Source: Chelativorans sp. J32 (GTDB lineage Bacteria > Pseudomonadota > Alphaproteobacteria > Rhizobiales > Rhizobiaceae). From it: DNA of 64,000 nt. The notes beneath the pieces were generated by a model that saw only the letters and a program-made list of their open reading frames with translations, searched no databases and was not told the DNA's origin. The stretch spans positions 248,001-312,000 of the forward strand of contig NZ_JAEQ01000002.1 in assembly GCF_000518985.1 (NCBI RefSeq), read 5' to 3'. Positions 36,199 to 42,338 of this stretch are shown here, one piece after another (the first letter of the stretch is position 1; every line of letters starts with the position of its first letter). The translations under genes were made by a program, and so were the position numbers.

Positions 36199-37160
36199 CA
36201 CGCGGCTCGGCGCTCATCGATAAGCTTGGCGACCGGTTATCGGCCCTGCGCGGCAGACTCACGCCGGATGCCGGAATGGACAAGATCACCTGGTTCCGCG
36301 CGGGCGGGGAGGCGGACGTGCTTTTCCAGCCGCAGGACGAGGAGGATCTCGCCGCTTTTCTAAAGGCGGTGCCTGAAGAAATCCCGATCACGATTGTCGG
36401 GATCGGCTCCAATCTTCTAGTGAGGGATGGTGGGATCCGCGGCTTTGTCGTGCGGCTCTCCGCCAAGGGCTTCGGCAATGCCGAGGTGATCTCTCCCACG
36501 CGAATCCGGGCGGGCGCGGCGATCCCCGACAAGCGTCTTGCTGCTGTGGCGCTGGAAGCGGGCATTGGCGGCTTCCATTTCTACCATGGCATTCCCGGCG
36601 GGCTCGGCGGAGCCCTTCGCATGAACGCGGGCGCCAACGGCGTGGAGACGCGCGAGCGCGTGGTCGAGGTGCACGCGCTGGACCGCAGGGGTGAGCAGCA
36701 CGTGTTTTCAAATGCCGATATGGGGTACTCCTACCGCTCGTCGAATATCCCCCAGGGGCTGATCTTCACCTCGGCGGTGCTGGAAGGATATGCGGAAGAT
36801 CGCATGGCGATCCGCACCGCGATGGACGCGGTGCAACATCACCGCGAAACCGTGCAGCCCATCCGGGAGAAGACGGGCGGTTCGACCTTCAAAAACCCGG
36901 AAGGCACTTCCGCCTGGAAGGAAGTCGACAAGGCCGGCTGTCGAGGCTTGATGATTGGCGGCGCGCAGATGTCGCCCATGCATTGCAATTTCATGATCAA
37001 TACCGGCACCGCGACGGGCCACGATCTCGAATATCTGGGTGAGACGGTGCGCGCACGGGTGTTGGAGAATTCCGGCATCAAGCTGGAATGGGAGATCAAG
37101 CGCCTCGGTGATTTCAAGCCGGGCCATGAAATCGATCCGTTCCTCGGGCAGTTGCTTTAG
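36195..37160 (+). CDS. murB: UDP-N-acetylenolpyruvoylglucosamine reductase MurB
   Basis: A 321-residue FAD enzyme that makes UDP-MurNAc. It has [28 protein letters not shown], the FAD segment [16 protein letters not shown] and [10 protein letters not shown] with the catalytic Ser, as in type II MurB. GTG 36195 overlapping the murC stop (GTGA) is the chosen start; an ATG at 36162 would overlap murC by 37 bases. It is the last gene before a 326-base gap that breaks the coupled string. Confidence 0.95.
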
Positions 37161-37486
37161 CTTCTCATAACGTATTGGTCAGCCAGCGCAGGCGTGGGAC
37201 GGAGCTTGCGGCAAACGCGTTGTTGCTGCCTTAAAATTGGCTGCAGCCACCCCTAGGATCGGGGGCGGAAAATGGCGCACGCGACGATCACTTTTGGCAA
37301 AATTTAGGAAAAATTGAATCCCACGGAATCTCAAGGCCTTGCCACGGAATCAACTCTCTGATTCTTTAGCTAGAAGTGTTTCCTGATTTGAGTCGGCGCG
37401 TTCGTTGCCGGGGGCTTTCATCCAAGTGGCAGTTTTTGAGTAGCGAGGGCGCCGCGCGTGTCGCGGCTGGAGAAGGGCATGGATAA
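37161..37486. promoter_or_regulatory. Gap before ddl with a cluster of five GANTC (CcrM) sites
   Basis: No gene is visible in this gap. GANTC occurs at 37316-37320, 37326-37330, 37347-37351, 37360-37364 and 37390-37394, five sites in 79 bases against one expected per 256 by chance. Two lie in a direct repeat CCACGGAATC (37321 and 37342). The segment is AT-richer than the flanks. CcrM methylates GANTC in alphaproteobacteria and, with GcrA, times division genes, so this is probably a cell-cycle controlled promoter region for ddl-ftsQ-ftsA-ftsZ. A three-codon ORF (ATG 37479) overlaps the ddl start. Confidence 0.6.
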
Positions 37487-38413
37487 ATGAAGAAGAAGCA
37501 TGTGGCCGTGCTTATGGGCGGTTTTTCGTCCGAAAGGCCCGTCTCGCTGTCTTCGGGTAATGCCTGCGCTGCTGCTCTGGAGGCGGAGGGCTACCGCGTT
37601 ACGCGCGTGGACGTCGCGCGCGACGTTGGGCGTGTGCTTGCCGAGTTGAAACCTGATGTGGCGTTCAACGCTTTGCATGGTCCTTTCGGTGAGGATGGTG
37701 CGATCCAGGGGGTGCTGGAATATCTCGGCATTCCTTACACTCACTCGGGCGTGCTTGCCTCTGCGCTGGCCATGGATAAGGATCTGGCCAAGATCGTTGC
37801 CATGTCTGCGGGTGTTCCTGTTGCTCCATCTCTGGTCTTGAGCCGGTTCGAGATCGGCAACGAACATCCGATGGAGCCGCCTTATGTGGTGAAGCCGGTT
37901 GCCGAAGGGTCGAGCTTCGGCGTCGTGATCGTTCGCGAGGGGCAGGCGAATCCTCCGCAGATTCTTGGGTCTGCCGAGTGGGTCTATGGCGACCGGGTTA
38001 TGGTTGAGCGCTATGTTCCCGGTCGCGAGCTTACCTGTGCGGTCATGGGCGATCGCGCTCTCGGGGTCTGTGAGATCGTCCCGCTCGGGCATAATTTCTA
38101 CGATTATGACTCGAAATACGAGCCGGGCGGCTCAAAGCACATTTGTCCTGCGGAACTTTCACCGAATATTTACCAAAAAATAGAAACATTAGCGCTTAGG
38201 GCACACCAGGCGATTGGCTGCCGGGGTGTTAGTCGTTCCGATTTCCGTTATGACGACCGGCTTCCCGGGGAGGAAGGGGTTGTCTGGCTGGAGATCAATA
38301 CGCAACCCGGTATGACGCCGACCTCCTTGGTGCCCGACATCGCCGCCCAGGCGGGGATCGATTTTGGGGCACTGTTGAGTTGGATGGTGGAGGACGCGTC
38401 TTGTTCGCGTTGA
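37487..38413 (+). CDS. ddl: D-alanine:D-alanine ligase Ddl
   Basis: A 308-residue ATP-grasp enzyme supplying D-Ala-D-Ala to MurF. Motifs: [47 protein letters not shown] (ATP lysine), [11 protein letters not shown] and [18 protein letters not shown] (metal ligands). Codon choice looks different from neighbours, with more T-ending codons and an A-rich stretch near 38165-38190. AAGGG lies nine bases before the ATG. Its 3' end overlaps ftsQ by 13 bases. Confidence 0.95.
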
Positions 38414-39300
38414 CCTCGGTAGGGAAAGGGCGCTTCGGCGAGGCTGGCATCGTGCTGCCGCGGTGGCTGCGCAAGCCTGCGCGCATGATGCAGCGTCTGC
38501 GGTTGGGCGAGAAGCGGCTTCCGCCATTTGCTGCGACCGGGGTAAGTCTGGCTCTGTTCATGGCGACCGGCATCTACGGTGTTATCGAGGGTGGTCATTC
38601 GGAAGAGGTGCTGAAGGCGGTCACCTCCCGGGTCGGCTTTGCGATCAATGATGTGGAGGTCGCCGGAAATCGGGAATCCTCCGAGATCGATGTGCTTCAG
38701 CAAGTGGGCCTCGATGGTTGGACGTCGATGGTGGGCTTCGACGTGCGCGAGGCCAGGCAGCGCATATCCGAGCTTCCCTGGGTCGAGAGCGTAGCCGTCC
38801 GCAAGGTTTATCCCTCGACGCTTGCGATCGAGATGGTCGAGAAGAAGCCATTCGCCCTTTGGCAGCAGGGCAGCCAGATTTCCATCATCGAAGAAGATGG
38901 CGAGGTGATCGCTCCCTTCTCCGGTGGTCGTCATGCGTCGCTCCCGCTCGTCATTGGCGAGGGCGCCGACAAGACTGGCCCGCAATTCATTTCGCAAGTC
39001 GAGAGGGTGCGGGGACTTCAAGGGCGCGTGAAGGCTTATATCCGCGTGGCCGACCGGCGGTGGGATCTGCGGCTCGACAACGGCGTCACGATCAAATTGC
39101 CGGAGAAGGGCGTGGAGACGGCGCTGGCTGAAGTCTCACGGCTCGATGCGGAATATTCGCTCCTTTCCCGCGATATTACAGCGGTTGATCTCAGACTGTC
39201 GGACCGGTTGACGGTGGCGCTCGCCCCGGAGGCTGCCGAGATGCGCAAGAAAGAGTTCGAAGAGATGGAGCGGAAGCGCAAGAAGGGAGCCCGCACATGA
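38401..39300 (+). CDS. ftsQ: Cell division protein FtsQ
   Basis: A 299-residue bitopic protein linking FtsL/FtsB to the divisome. It has a cytoplasmic tail, a membrane helix near residues 45-62 ([19 protein letters not shown]), a POTRA domain starting [18 protein letters not shown], and the beta domain with [31 protein letters not shown] choose TTG 38401, inside the end of ddl, because GGAGG (38389-38393) sits seven bases before it and translation then begins [10 protein letters not shown], like other rhizobial FtsQ. A TTG at 38380 is an alternative without such a site. Confidence 0.9.
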
Positions 39301-40610
39301 GTTGGCTCCTTGGCAATCGCGGGGCGGCCCAGCGCTCAGGCATCATCACGGTGCTCGATGTGGGATCGAGCAAAGTGTCGTGCATCATCGCCAAACTGCT
39401 GCCCGACGAAAATATGCGCGCGCTGCCCCATCGCACGCACCGCATCAGGGTTGTGGGCATCGGCCATCAGAAGTCCCAAGGCGTCAAGTCCGGCGTGGTT
39501 GTCGACCTTGATCGCGCGGAGCAGGCCATCCGGCTTGCCGTAGATGCCGCCGAGAGAATGGCCGGGCTGACGGTGGATTCGCTCATCGTCAACGTATCGG
39601 CAGGGCGTATTCGTAGCGAGACCTCTACGGCGACGATCAATCTCGGCGGCCACGAGGTGGCGAATGCCGATATCGCGCGTGTCCTGCTTGCAGGAGCGCG
39701 TCAGGCCTTGCGCGCCGAGCGTGAGGTGGTGCACTCCCTCGCGGTCGGCTTCTCGCTCGATCTCGAGCGCGGCATCCGCGATCCGCGGGGCATGATGGGC
39801 GATACGCTCGGAGTCGACATGCACGTCGTTACTGCCGACGCGGTGCCGCTCAGAAATCTCGAATTGTGCATCAACCGTGCGCATCTCTCGGTCGAGCGCA
39901 TGGTCGCGACGCCCTATGCCAGCGGGCTGGCAGCCCTGGTGGACGACGAAGCGGAAATGGGCGCTGCCTGCATCGACATGGGCGGCGGCACGACGACCAT
40001 GTCGGTCTTCGTCGAAGGAAAGTTCGTCCATGCCGACGCGATTCCGGTGGGCGGCAATCACGTGACCATGGATCTGGCACGCGGCCTTTCCATTCGGCTC
40101 GATGATGCGGAGCGCCTTAAGGTGATGCATGGCTCGGCGCTGCCGGCCAGCGCTGCCGATGATCGCGAAATGGTGTCGGTCCAGCCCATCGGTGGCGACG
40201 AAATGGACGAGCCGTTGCAGGTCCCGCGTTCGGTGATGACCCGCGTTGTTCGGGCGCGGGTCGAGGAGACCTTGGAGCTGGTGCGGGATCGGCTCAATCG
40301 TTCAGGTTATGGCGCCCTTGTCGGGCGCCGCGTGGTGCTCACGGGCGGCGCAAGCCAGCTCGCGGGTTTGCCGGAGGCCGCCCGGCGGCTTCTGGGACGG
40401 AATGTTCGCCTCGGTCGGCCTCTTGGTGTTGCCGGCCTGCCTGAGGCGGCAAAGGGGGCAGCTTTCGCGGCTCCCGTCGGCCTCTTGATCTATCCGCAGG
40501 TTGCGGAATTCGAGAGTCGGGCGGCGGCAAAGGGCGGCCTATTCATGCGCTCCACAGGGACCGGGGGCAGGTTCCAGCGTGTCGGACAGTGGTTGCGAGA
40601 TAGTTTTTGA
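39297..40610 (+). CDS. ftsA: Cell division protein FtsA
   Basis: A 437-residue actin-fold ATPase that anchors FtsZ to the membrane. Nucleotide-binding motifs are TVLDVGSSKVSCII and AACIDMGGGTTTMSVF; the adenosine loop is VVLTGGASQLAGL. The C-terminal amphipathic helix RFQRVGQWLRDSF serves as membrane-targeting sequence. Start overlaps ftsQ by four bases. Confidence 0.95.
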   Translation: MSWLLGNRGAAQRSGIITVLDVGSSKVSCIIAKLLPDENMRALPHRTHRIRVVGIGHQKSQGVKSGVVVDLDRAEQAIRLAVDAAERMAGLTVDSLIVNVSAGRIRSETSTATINLGGHEVANADIARVLLAGARQALRAEREVVHSLAVGFSLDLERGIRDPRGMMGDTLGVDMHVVTADAVPLRNLELCINRAHLSVERMVATPYASGLAALVDDEAEMGAACIDMGGGTTTMSVFVEGKFVHADAIPVGGNHVTMDLARGLSIRLDDAERLKVMHGSALPASAADDREMVSVQPIGGDEMDEPLQVPRSVMTRVVRARVEETLELVRDRLNRSGYGALVGRRVVLTGGASQLAGLPEAARRLLGRNVRLGRPLGVAGLPEAAKGAAFAAPVGLLIYPQVAEFESRAAAKGGLFMRSTGTGGRFQRVGQWLRDSF

Positions 40611-40673: not shown

Positions 40674-42338
40674 ATGACCATCAATCTGAAAAAGCCGGAC
40701 ATTACCGAGCTTAAGCCGAGAATCACCGTCTTCGGCGTTGGGGGCGGAGGCGGTAACGCAGTCAACAACATGATCACCTCGGGGCTTCGCGGGGTGGAGT
40801 TCGTCGTGGCGAATACCGACGCGCAGGCGCTGACCATGTCGAAGGCCGAGCGGATCATCCAGCTTGGTGCGCATGTCACCGAGGGGCTGGGCGCCGGGTC
40901 CCAGCCCGAAGTCGGCCAGGCCGCTGCCGAGGAATGCATCGACGAGATCCTGGACCATCTCTCGAACACGCATATGTGCTTCGTCACTGCCGGCATGGGT
41001 GGCGGCACGGGCACGGGCGCAGCTCCGGTCGTTGCGCGCGCGGCACGTGAGAAGGGTATCCTGACCGTCGGCGTGGTGACGAAGCCGTTCCACTTCGAAG
41101 GGCAGCGCCGCATGCGGATCGCCGATTCCGGTATCGAAGAGCTCCAGAAGTGCGTCGATACGCTGATCGTGATCCCCAACCAGAACCTCTTCCGGATCGC
41201 CAACGACAAGACCACTTTCGCCGACGCCTTCGCGATGGCGGACCAAGTGCTCTATTCGGGCGTGGCCTGCATCACGGATCTCATGGTGAAGGAAGGCCTG
41301 ATCAACCTCGATTTCGCGGACGTCCGCTCGGTCATGCGCGAGATGGGAAAGGCAATGATGGGCACGGGCGAGGCTTCCGGCGAGGGCCGCGCGATGGCGG
41401 CCGCAGAGGCTGCAATCGCCAACCCGCTTCTGGACGAGACCTCCATGAAGGGCGCGAGGGGCCTGCTGATCTCCATCACCGGCGGTCGCGACCTCACCCT
41501 GTTCGAGGTGGACGAGGCTGCGACCCGCATTCGCGAGGAAGTCGATCAGGATGCCAACATCATCCTGGGCGCCACCTTCGACGAGGAGCTGGAAGGCGTC
41601 ATCCGTGTCTCGGTCGTGGCCACCGGAATCGACAAGTCAGCGCATGATATCTCGTCGCCGCCTTCCGCGATCCGCCAGCCGCAGCGGCCCGTCCAGGTTC
41701 AGACGAAGCCTTCGGCCGGTTTCGAGACCCGCGCTCCTGCGCCGCAGCCGGTTGCCCAGGTCGCGCGCGAGACCCAGCCCGAAGCCCACGCGGACGCCCA
41801 TCACGAGATGGTTGCCGACGCTCTTCGCGTGGCGCAGGGCGGCGGAGGTGCGGCGACGGCGCATGCCATGGCTTTCCAGCCGCAGAGCAGGCTCTTCAAG
41901 CCGGCGGCTCCGGCGCCGGAAGCCGTCGTGCGGCCAGTACCCGTCGCACAACCTCAGCCACAGCCGCAGCCGGTCGCACATGTCGAACCCGCTCCTGCAC
42001 CGCGTATGCCGCGCGTGGAAGACTTCCCGCCGGTGGTTCAGGCCGAGCTTCAGGCCGGTGCTGCGCGCGCCGTCCCGGAGCAGGAGGACCGTGGTCCGAT
42101 GGGTTTGCTCAAGCGCCTGACCACGGGTCTGTCACGCCGTGAGGACGACAGCCATTCCGCTCAGGCCCCGGAGCCGCGTTTGCGCCAGCCCGATCCGCGC
42201 CGCGCCGCCGCGGAAAGCAACATTTACGCGCCGCGCAGGGGGCAGCTTGACGATCAGGGCCGTGTGATGCAGCAGCGGCCGGCCCAGGAAGACGATCAGC
42301 TTGAGATCCCTGCCTTCCTGCGCCGACAGGCGAACTGA
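40674..42338 (+). CDS. ftsZ: Cell division GTPase FtsZ
   Basis: A 554-residue tubulin-like GTPase forming the Z-ring. The GTPase domain (about 13-320) has [15 protein letters not shown], the tubulin signature [16 protein letters not shown] and the T7 loop [12 protein letters not shown] long disordered linker of about 200 residues rich in Pro, Ala and Gln is typical of Rhizobiales FtsZ1. The conserved C-terminal peptide [12 protein letters not shown] binds FtsA. AGGA lies upstream of the ATG. The 63-base gap after ftsA and the terminator after it make it the end of the coupled run. Confidence 0.97.

Follow-up and report, generated by a model that had tools for sequence, protein, structure and literature searches.

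The gap between murB and ddl in the division gene cluster of Chelativorans sp. J32 probably holds a CcrM-marked, methylation-sensitive promoter that serves ddl and the genes following it. Judged by sequence, this reading is carried by a recurrent unit of GANTC sites, by its conservation, by the selection that appears to act on the GANTC letters of one site (S3), and by a block that the ddl and gcrA promoters have in common. The cluster of methylation sites before ddl suggests a possible way for DNA replication to time cell division.

GANTC Sites Are Clustered in the murB-ddl Gap

CcrM methylates GANTC in alphaproteobacteria. The preliminary description had placed five such sites within 79 bp in the only large gap of the division cluster, two of them sharing a direct repeat. 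The positions (S1 to S5, Table 1) and the span were reproduced exactly, the repeat was found as CCACGGAATC at 37321-37330 and 37342-37351, and the gap, which separates the murB stop from the ddl ATG by 326 bp, is the only large one between murG and ftsZ, the range over which gaps were measured. The upstream neighbor of the gap was named murB by its Pfam match, and on the other side ddl overlaps ftsQ and ftsQ overlaps ftsA. The 63-bp gap between ftsA and ftsZ contains no GANTC, that is, no site of the Caulobacter type directly upstream of ftsZ, and one GANTC is located at 40514, within ftsA. Just before ddl, at 37480-37491, ATGGATAAATGA contains a three-codon ORF, the stop of which overlaps the ddl start codon.

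Table 1. Features of the murB-ddl gap and of the genes that follow it (positions in the window).
Feature	Position	Strand	Remark
murB-ddl intergenic gap	37161..37486	+	From ORF ends and Pfam names
S1, GAATC	37316..37320	+	
S2, GAATC	37326..37330	+	10 bp after S1
CTTGCCA, putative -35 element	37338..37344	+	TTG at constant distance from S4
CTTGYCASSGARTC block, common to ddl and gcrA promoters	37338..37351	+	
S3, GAATC	37347..37351	+	2 bp after putative -35 element
TCTGATTC with S4 (37360-37364)	37357..37364	+	Possibly -10 region
Expected transcription start, if CTTGCCA is a -35 element	37375	+	Inferred, ~36 bp after first T of TTG
S5, TGAGTCG context	37390..37395, T at 37389	+	Fits YGAKTCG; reverse complement CGACTCA
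ddl, D-Ala-D-Ala ligase	37487..38413	+	Pfam PF07478, PF01820
ftsQ	38380..39300	+	Pfam PF03799, PF08478; start from mechanical ORF listing
ftsA	39297..40610	+	Pfam PF14450
ftsZ	40674..42338	+	Pfam PF00091, PF12327

In the window, the whole 64,000-nt stretch that was analyzed, 105 GANTC sites were observed vs. 340 expected from dinucleotide shuffles, indicating that the motif is depleted. The murB-ddl array is the sole five-site cluster of its kind there, and the next tightest span of five sites having none in common with it measures 682 bp. For the composition of the gap, 1.05 GANTC would be expected, and five within 79 bp had a P of about 1e-4 (20,000 Markov sequences). The gap is in this respect above background, as would be expected of a promoter regulated by CcrM and GcrA. 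A 644-kb sample of the same genome (14%) contained 1,217 sites, or 1.89 per kb. In two places of this sample, the murB-ddl gap and C1:2946-3035, five sites fell within 84 bp, and the third densest cluster was the gcrA promoter (148 bp). Comparable clusters throughout the genome, which the preliminary description had named as an argument against itself, were reduced in this sample to that one other place. The murB-ddl cluster is unusual, though not unique. Sites phased at about 21 bp were also seen, GAATCG at C1:2946, 2967, 2989, and 3010 (L183; further sites at 2757-2804) and GATTC at C2:12552, 12573, 12594, and 12615 (L248; region C2:12552-12619), the latter shortly upstream of an ORF without a Pfam hit.

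A Fixed Unit Precedes ddl in More Than Half of the Family Genomes

The DNA before ddl was compared in 101 genomes of the family, as the database itself groups it, covering 100 genera with one genome each except for the window's own genus. A 58-bp footprint recurs before ddl, with the form CTTGYCA-N2-GANTC (S3)-N5-TCTGATTC (S4)-~25-TGAKTCG (S5). The strict pair of S4 and S5, defined as TGATTC-N22..26-TGAKTCG within 350 bp of ddl, was present in 55 of the 101 genomes, against 0.03 predicted by Markov sequences of these regions. More widely defined, S4 and S5 occurred together in 59 genomes, 38 of which also have S3. A model of the footprint, built from 58 of the genomes on which it was later run, matched at ddl in 59 of 101 (two not used in building it, with one used genome unmatched). 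Its only off-target matches at E<=0.01 were two weak ones, both in the genome G050, and in the window's own genome it found the ddl copy only (E up to 10; 150 of 557 candidates scored). By strict pair and by model match alike, the sites are conserved upstream of ddl orthologues. The preliminary description had looked to relatives for the same number and spacing of sites. This held for the core of S3, S4, and S5 across many genera, but not for the full five-site array, which was complete in 13 of 101 genomes.

Outside the family, the strict pair was found in 1 of 40 genomes (35 families), a chosen subset of 116 non-family genomes. The murB end was located in 32 of them and lies at most 10 bp from ddl in 17 of these 32, so much of the upstream DNA of the outside set is murB. 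The 350 bp upstream of ddl contained on average 4.22 GANTC in the family vs. 1.69 expected, and 0.73 vs. 1.71 expected in the 40 outside genomes. A cluster formed by chance or inherited neutrally would fit the restriction of the full array to a subset of genomes. However, the frequency of the S4-S5 pair far above expectation, with flanks that have changed freely, makes this explanation highly improbable.

The window's own genome encodes GcrA (PF07750) and also a CcrM-like protein, a 383-aa ORF with the RAMA domain PF18755 that reads DPPY, which we take to be a methyltransferase motif. The CcrM-type RAMA domain and the GcrA domain were each detected in 101 of 101 family genomes. The unit is dispensable in many relatives, because the S4+S5 pair is missing in 42 of the 101 genomes, all of which have both domains. 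The idea that the unit disappeared because CcrM or GcrA had been lost was rejected on the same count.

Selection Differs Among S3, S4, and S5

Some alignment rows had been preselected by TGATTC and GAKTC at 28-33 bp, and the 71-row alignment additionally required at least two of TTG, TCT, and S3; a recount left the N of S4 and S5 unfixed. TTG stands 21 bp before S4 in all 58 of the 58 genomes with S4 and S5, and it was not a criterion of their selection. With the N of S4 unfixed, TTG-N18-GANTC occurs 80 times upstream of ddl in the family, and 65 of these occurrences read TCTGATTC. The distance between S4 and S5 is 28-32 bp, most often 30, and sequence conservation stops sharply after the G following S5. 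The place of S2 holds GANTC in 36 of 60 aligned loci.

Changes were then mapped on a tree of ddl DNA for 60 loci with TTGYCA. At S3 they numbered one each at G, A, T, and C and eight at N, while the two bases preceding the site changed 11 and 14 times and bases further on up to 14 times (neighbors 10-14). Under equal constraint on the five letters, at least 8 of 12 changes at N would have a binomial P of about 6e-4. S3 is intact in 57 of the 60 loci, where all four bases are found at N, and in all 71 rows its five letters changed 3, 5, 12, 5, and 3 times. Since G, A, T, and C are held and N is free, the CcrM motif itself seems to be selected, and S3 looks like a site selected for CcrM. S4 showed zero changes in the 60 loci, N included; this invariant N sets it apart from a bare methylation site, and S4 looks selected as a fixed sequence that may belong to the promoter. 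At S5, N alone changed, twice. S5 looks selected as YGAKTCG, the form read in 56 of 59 S5 partners that had been chosen without use of N.

These letters also bear on the reading that the unit is an ordinary promoter or the site of another regulator, the GATTC/GAKTC letters being part of it and methylation playing no role. The fixed N of S4, which methylation does not need, agrees with this, as do the TCT before S4 and the conservation of non-GANTC letters elsewhere (for example TTG and CTGATTT). However, S3 holds only its GA and TC, and S1, S2, and an extra pair in other genera add GANTC where the genome is otherwise poor in it. On balance, a unit in which methylation plays no role is conceivable and somewhat unlikely.

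A scan for consensus sigma-70 promoters (TTGACA/TATAAT-like, at the scan thresholds) gave none in 37100-37520, and the same scan gave no terminator; no Rfam family reached its gathering score in 37000-37600. TTCTTT 17 bp after TTGCCA and GATTCT 15 bp after it were tried as the -10 element, and neither was convincing. With GATTCT as that element, methylation would fall on its second base, the A of S4. A CtrA-bound promoter was also considered and set aside: with the CtrA motif assumed to be TTAA-N7-TTAA (at most one mismatch), the window contains two matches, none of them in the murB-ddl gap.

The ddl and gcrA Promoters Have a Block in Common

The 4.70-Mb assembly contains CTTGYCASSGARTC exactly twice, once upstream of gcrA and once upstream of ddl. 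The 101 family genomes contain 104 copies, of which gcrA has 60 and ddl 26 at a distance of up to 400 bp; the remaining 18 lie elsewhere, the same number as for a reversed control pattern (18 occurrences). Both genes have the block in 22 genomes, and 34 of 101 genomes lack it altogether. Both promoters were already known when the pattern was drawn up, and what counts is that there is no excess elsewhere.

The gcrA promoter of the same genome (C1:333228-333375, L001) has five GANTC, with GACTC and GAGTC flanking TTGTCA. Among the 21 upstream regions of gcrA from this genome and 20 chosen others out of the 101, 19 keep two GANTC at a distance of 13 bp, and 20 contain TTGNC-N3-GANTC, the same block as around S3 of ddl. 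The flanked TTGTCA layout was kept in most of the 20 others. In the Rhizobiaceae, the gcrA promoter resembles that of ddl in the CTTGYCA-N2-GANTC block and in its clustering of GANTC. Unlike ddl, it has GACTC directly before TTG in most sequences, and it has neither TCTGATTC at the ddl spacing nor the S4-S5 pair. In the 644-kb sample, CTTGNC-N3-GANTC was not enriched (8 vs. 7-11 in shuffles), and a general regulon signature, sought as TTG at fixed distances from GANTC, was rejected with no enrichment at the ddl spacing. In S. meliloti, gcrA transcription is reported to start 122 bp before the AUG (PMC4414408). The gcrA TTG lies 151-174 bp before the ATG in 20 regions, or 29-52 bp before this start, which was taken from another species. 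The distance of 36 bp that a -35 element would have falls inside this range.

The common block suggests that full methylation beside the -35 element might hold the ddl promoter down, that hemimethylation on fork passage would fire ddl-ftsQAZ together with gcrA, and that GcrA would then activate at S5. In favor of such de-repression are the 86 of 104 copies at gcrA or ddl, the near-constant block upstream of gcrA, and the gcrA promoter of A. tumefaciens, which is reported to be less active when methylated, even in E. coli with CcrM (PMC11514494). On the other hand, the pattern derives from the two promoters themselves, only 26 copies at ddl match it, with both genes matched in the 22 genomes, and the ddl and gcrA sequences diverge after the block. 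De-repression of this kind is accordingly put forward only tentatively.

Comparison With Caulobacter and Proposed Mechanism

In Caulobacter crescentus, CcrM methylation of CGACTC activates ftsZ and mipZ, as indicated by mutation and methylation tests (PMC3708114). The ddl unit is similar in that it precedes division genes and has GANTC in a conserved extended context, including CGACTC on the other strand of S5. It differs in the place of its sites, before ddl and three genes ahead of ftsZ, in having a second, fixed site of the form GATTC, and in the -35-like element next to one GANTC. GcrA-dependent sigma-70 promoters are described as carrying YGAKTCG/YGAKTCK (PMC7987155); GcrA is encoded in the genome and S5 fits this motif, whereas the other sites of the gap do not. 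Methylated GANTC may recruit GcrA with sigma-70 RNA polymerase and turn ddl-ftsQAZ on, promoter activity then falling when CcrM is absent, a possibility that we consider doubtful. The form of S5 on either strand and the presence of GcrA agree with it. However, S5 lies about 15 bp downstream of the start expected from the -35-like element, and the common block points to gcrA, which is repressed by methylation in A. tumefaciens. In addition, depletion of CcrM in A. tumefaciens alters ftsZ by less than a factor of two (PMC11514494). The last result says little here, because the sole Agrobacterium locus among the best 80 named loci has no unit.

Our preferred reading remains a CcrM-marked promoter built as a fixed unit: a -35-like CTTGYCA, S3 two bases on, the fixed S4 sequence, and a GcrA-type YGAKTCG about 30 bp further. 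RNA polymerase would start in the murB-ddl gap, CcrM would methylate the sites, and passage of the replication fork would leave them hemimethylated. RNA polymerase at S3/S4 and GcrA at S5 may sense the methylation state, whose change would alter transcription of ddl-ftsQ-ftsA and perhaps ftsZ. S1 and S2 would be accessory, as would the GAYTCGGAYTC pair located downstream in other genera. The preliminary description had inferred a cell-cycle timed promoter that starts ddl and the FtsQAZ genes separately from the mra-mur genes, a reading that is supported in part, through the site and its conservation. Because the unit combines a GcrA-type site with a gcrA-type block, its sign is left between activation and release by replication. 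Repression relieved by replication would be as likely as activation of the Caulobacter kind, because methylation represses gcrA in Agrobacterium.

A more specific and rather unlikely extension is that the promoters of gcrA and ddl-ftsQAZ make up a set of two in this family. Methylation next to the -35 element would keep both of them down until the passing fork releases them at the same time, and GcrA would then reinforce the division genes through S5. If true, this would be a feed-forward link from replication to division. Its methylation sign would be the reverse of that in Caulobacter, and it might partly explain the importance of CcrM and GcrA for division in species that carry the unit. 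S. meliloti is reported to stop dividing when GcrA is depleted (PMC4414408); in Brucella the same depletion yields branched, division-defective cells, and GcrA ChIP peaks are rich in GANTC (PMC6813329). The published argument against CcrM control of ftsZ in Rhizobiales deserves a second look in unit carriers, because the unit heads ddl-ftsQAZ and is kept in over half of the family genera examined. The block common with gcrA gives a sharp prediction on the sign of methylation.

CcrM-marked promoters are already known as a kind. The arrangement of the unit, its place at ddl, its spread in the family, and the two-gene block with gcrA appear to be new within the literature searched, where no description of a ddl promoter unit was found. 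The scan of operon heads in PMC7987155 reported likely regulation of ftsZ by GcrA for some of the 13 species covered and could include this unit.

Distribution of the Unit Among Named Relatives

Species without the unit, such as the one Agrobacterium locus, may serve as natural controls. Named loci were taken as the best 80 of at least 587 relatives, a set biased to near ones, and all counts that follow refer to these 80. The strict pair was present in 49 and the full five-site array in 23. All 19 Mesorhizobium loci carried the pair, as did 9 of 26 Rhizobium loci and, among others, Aminobacter, Chelativorans, Nitratireductor, Aquamicrobium, Phyllobacterium, Ochrobactrum, Brucella, and Shinella. 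It was not found in the one Agrobacterium, four Ciceribacter, and two Ensifer loci, and six Sinorhizobium loci had no unit or a partial one.

In several loci with a murB-ddl distance of 0.5-2 kb, the unit stays with ddl (e.g., L010, L028, L033, L074, and L075). A distance of 1-2 kb was seen in L017, L028, L033, L061, L074, and others, and the unit, where present, keeps to ddl. A GACTCG-GACTC or similar pair about 60-50 bp before ddl was seen in L003, L008, L012, L021, L036, and others; GAYTCGGAYTC occurs in 18 of the best 80 named loci and is absent from the window. In the Brucella/Ochrobactrum-type loci L018, L078, L092, and L098, the spacer between S4 and S5 contains GGTTAACC, which we take to resemble a CtrA half-site; L092 is a Brucella locus with the unit.
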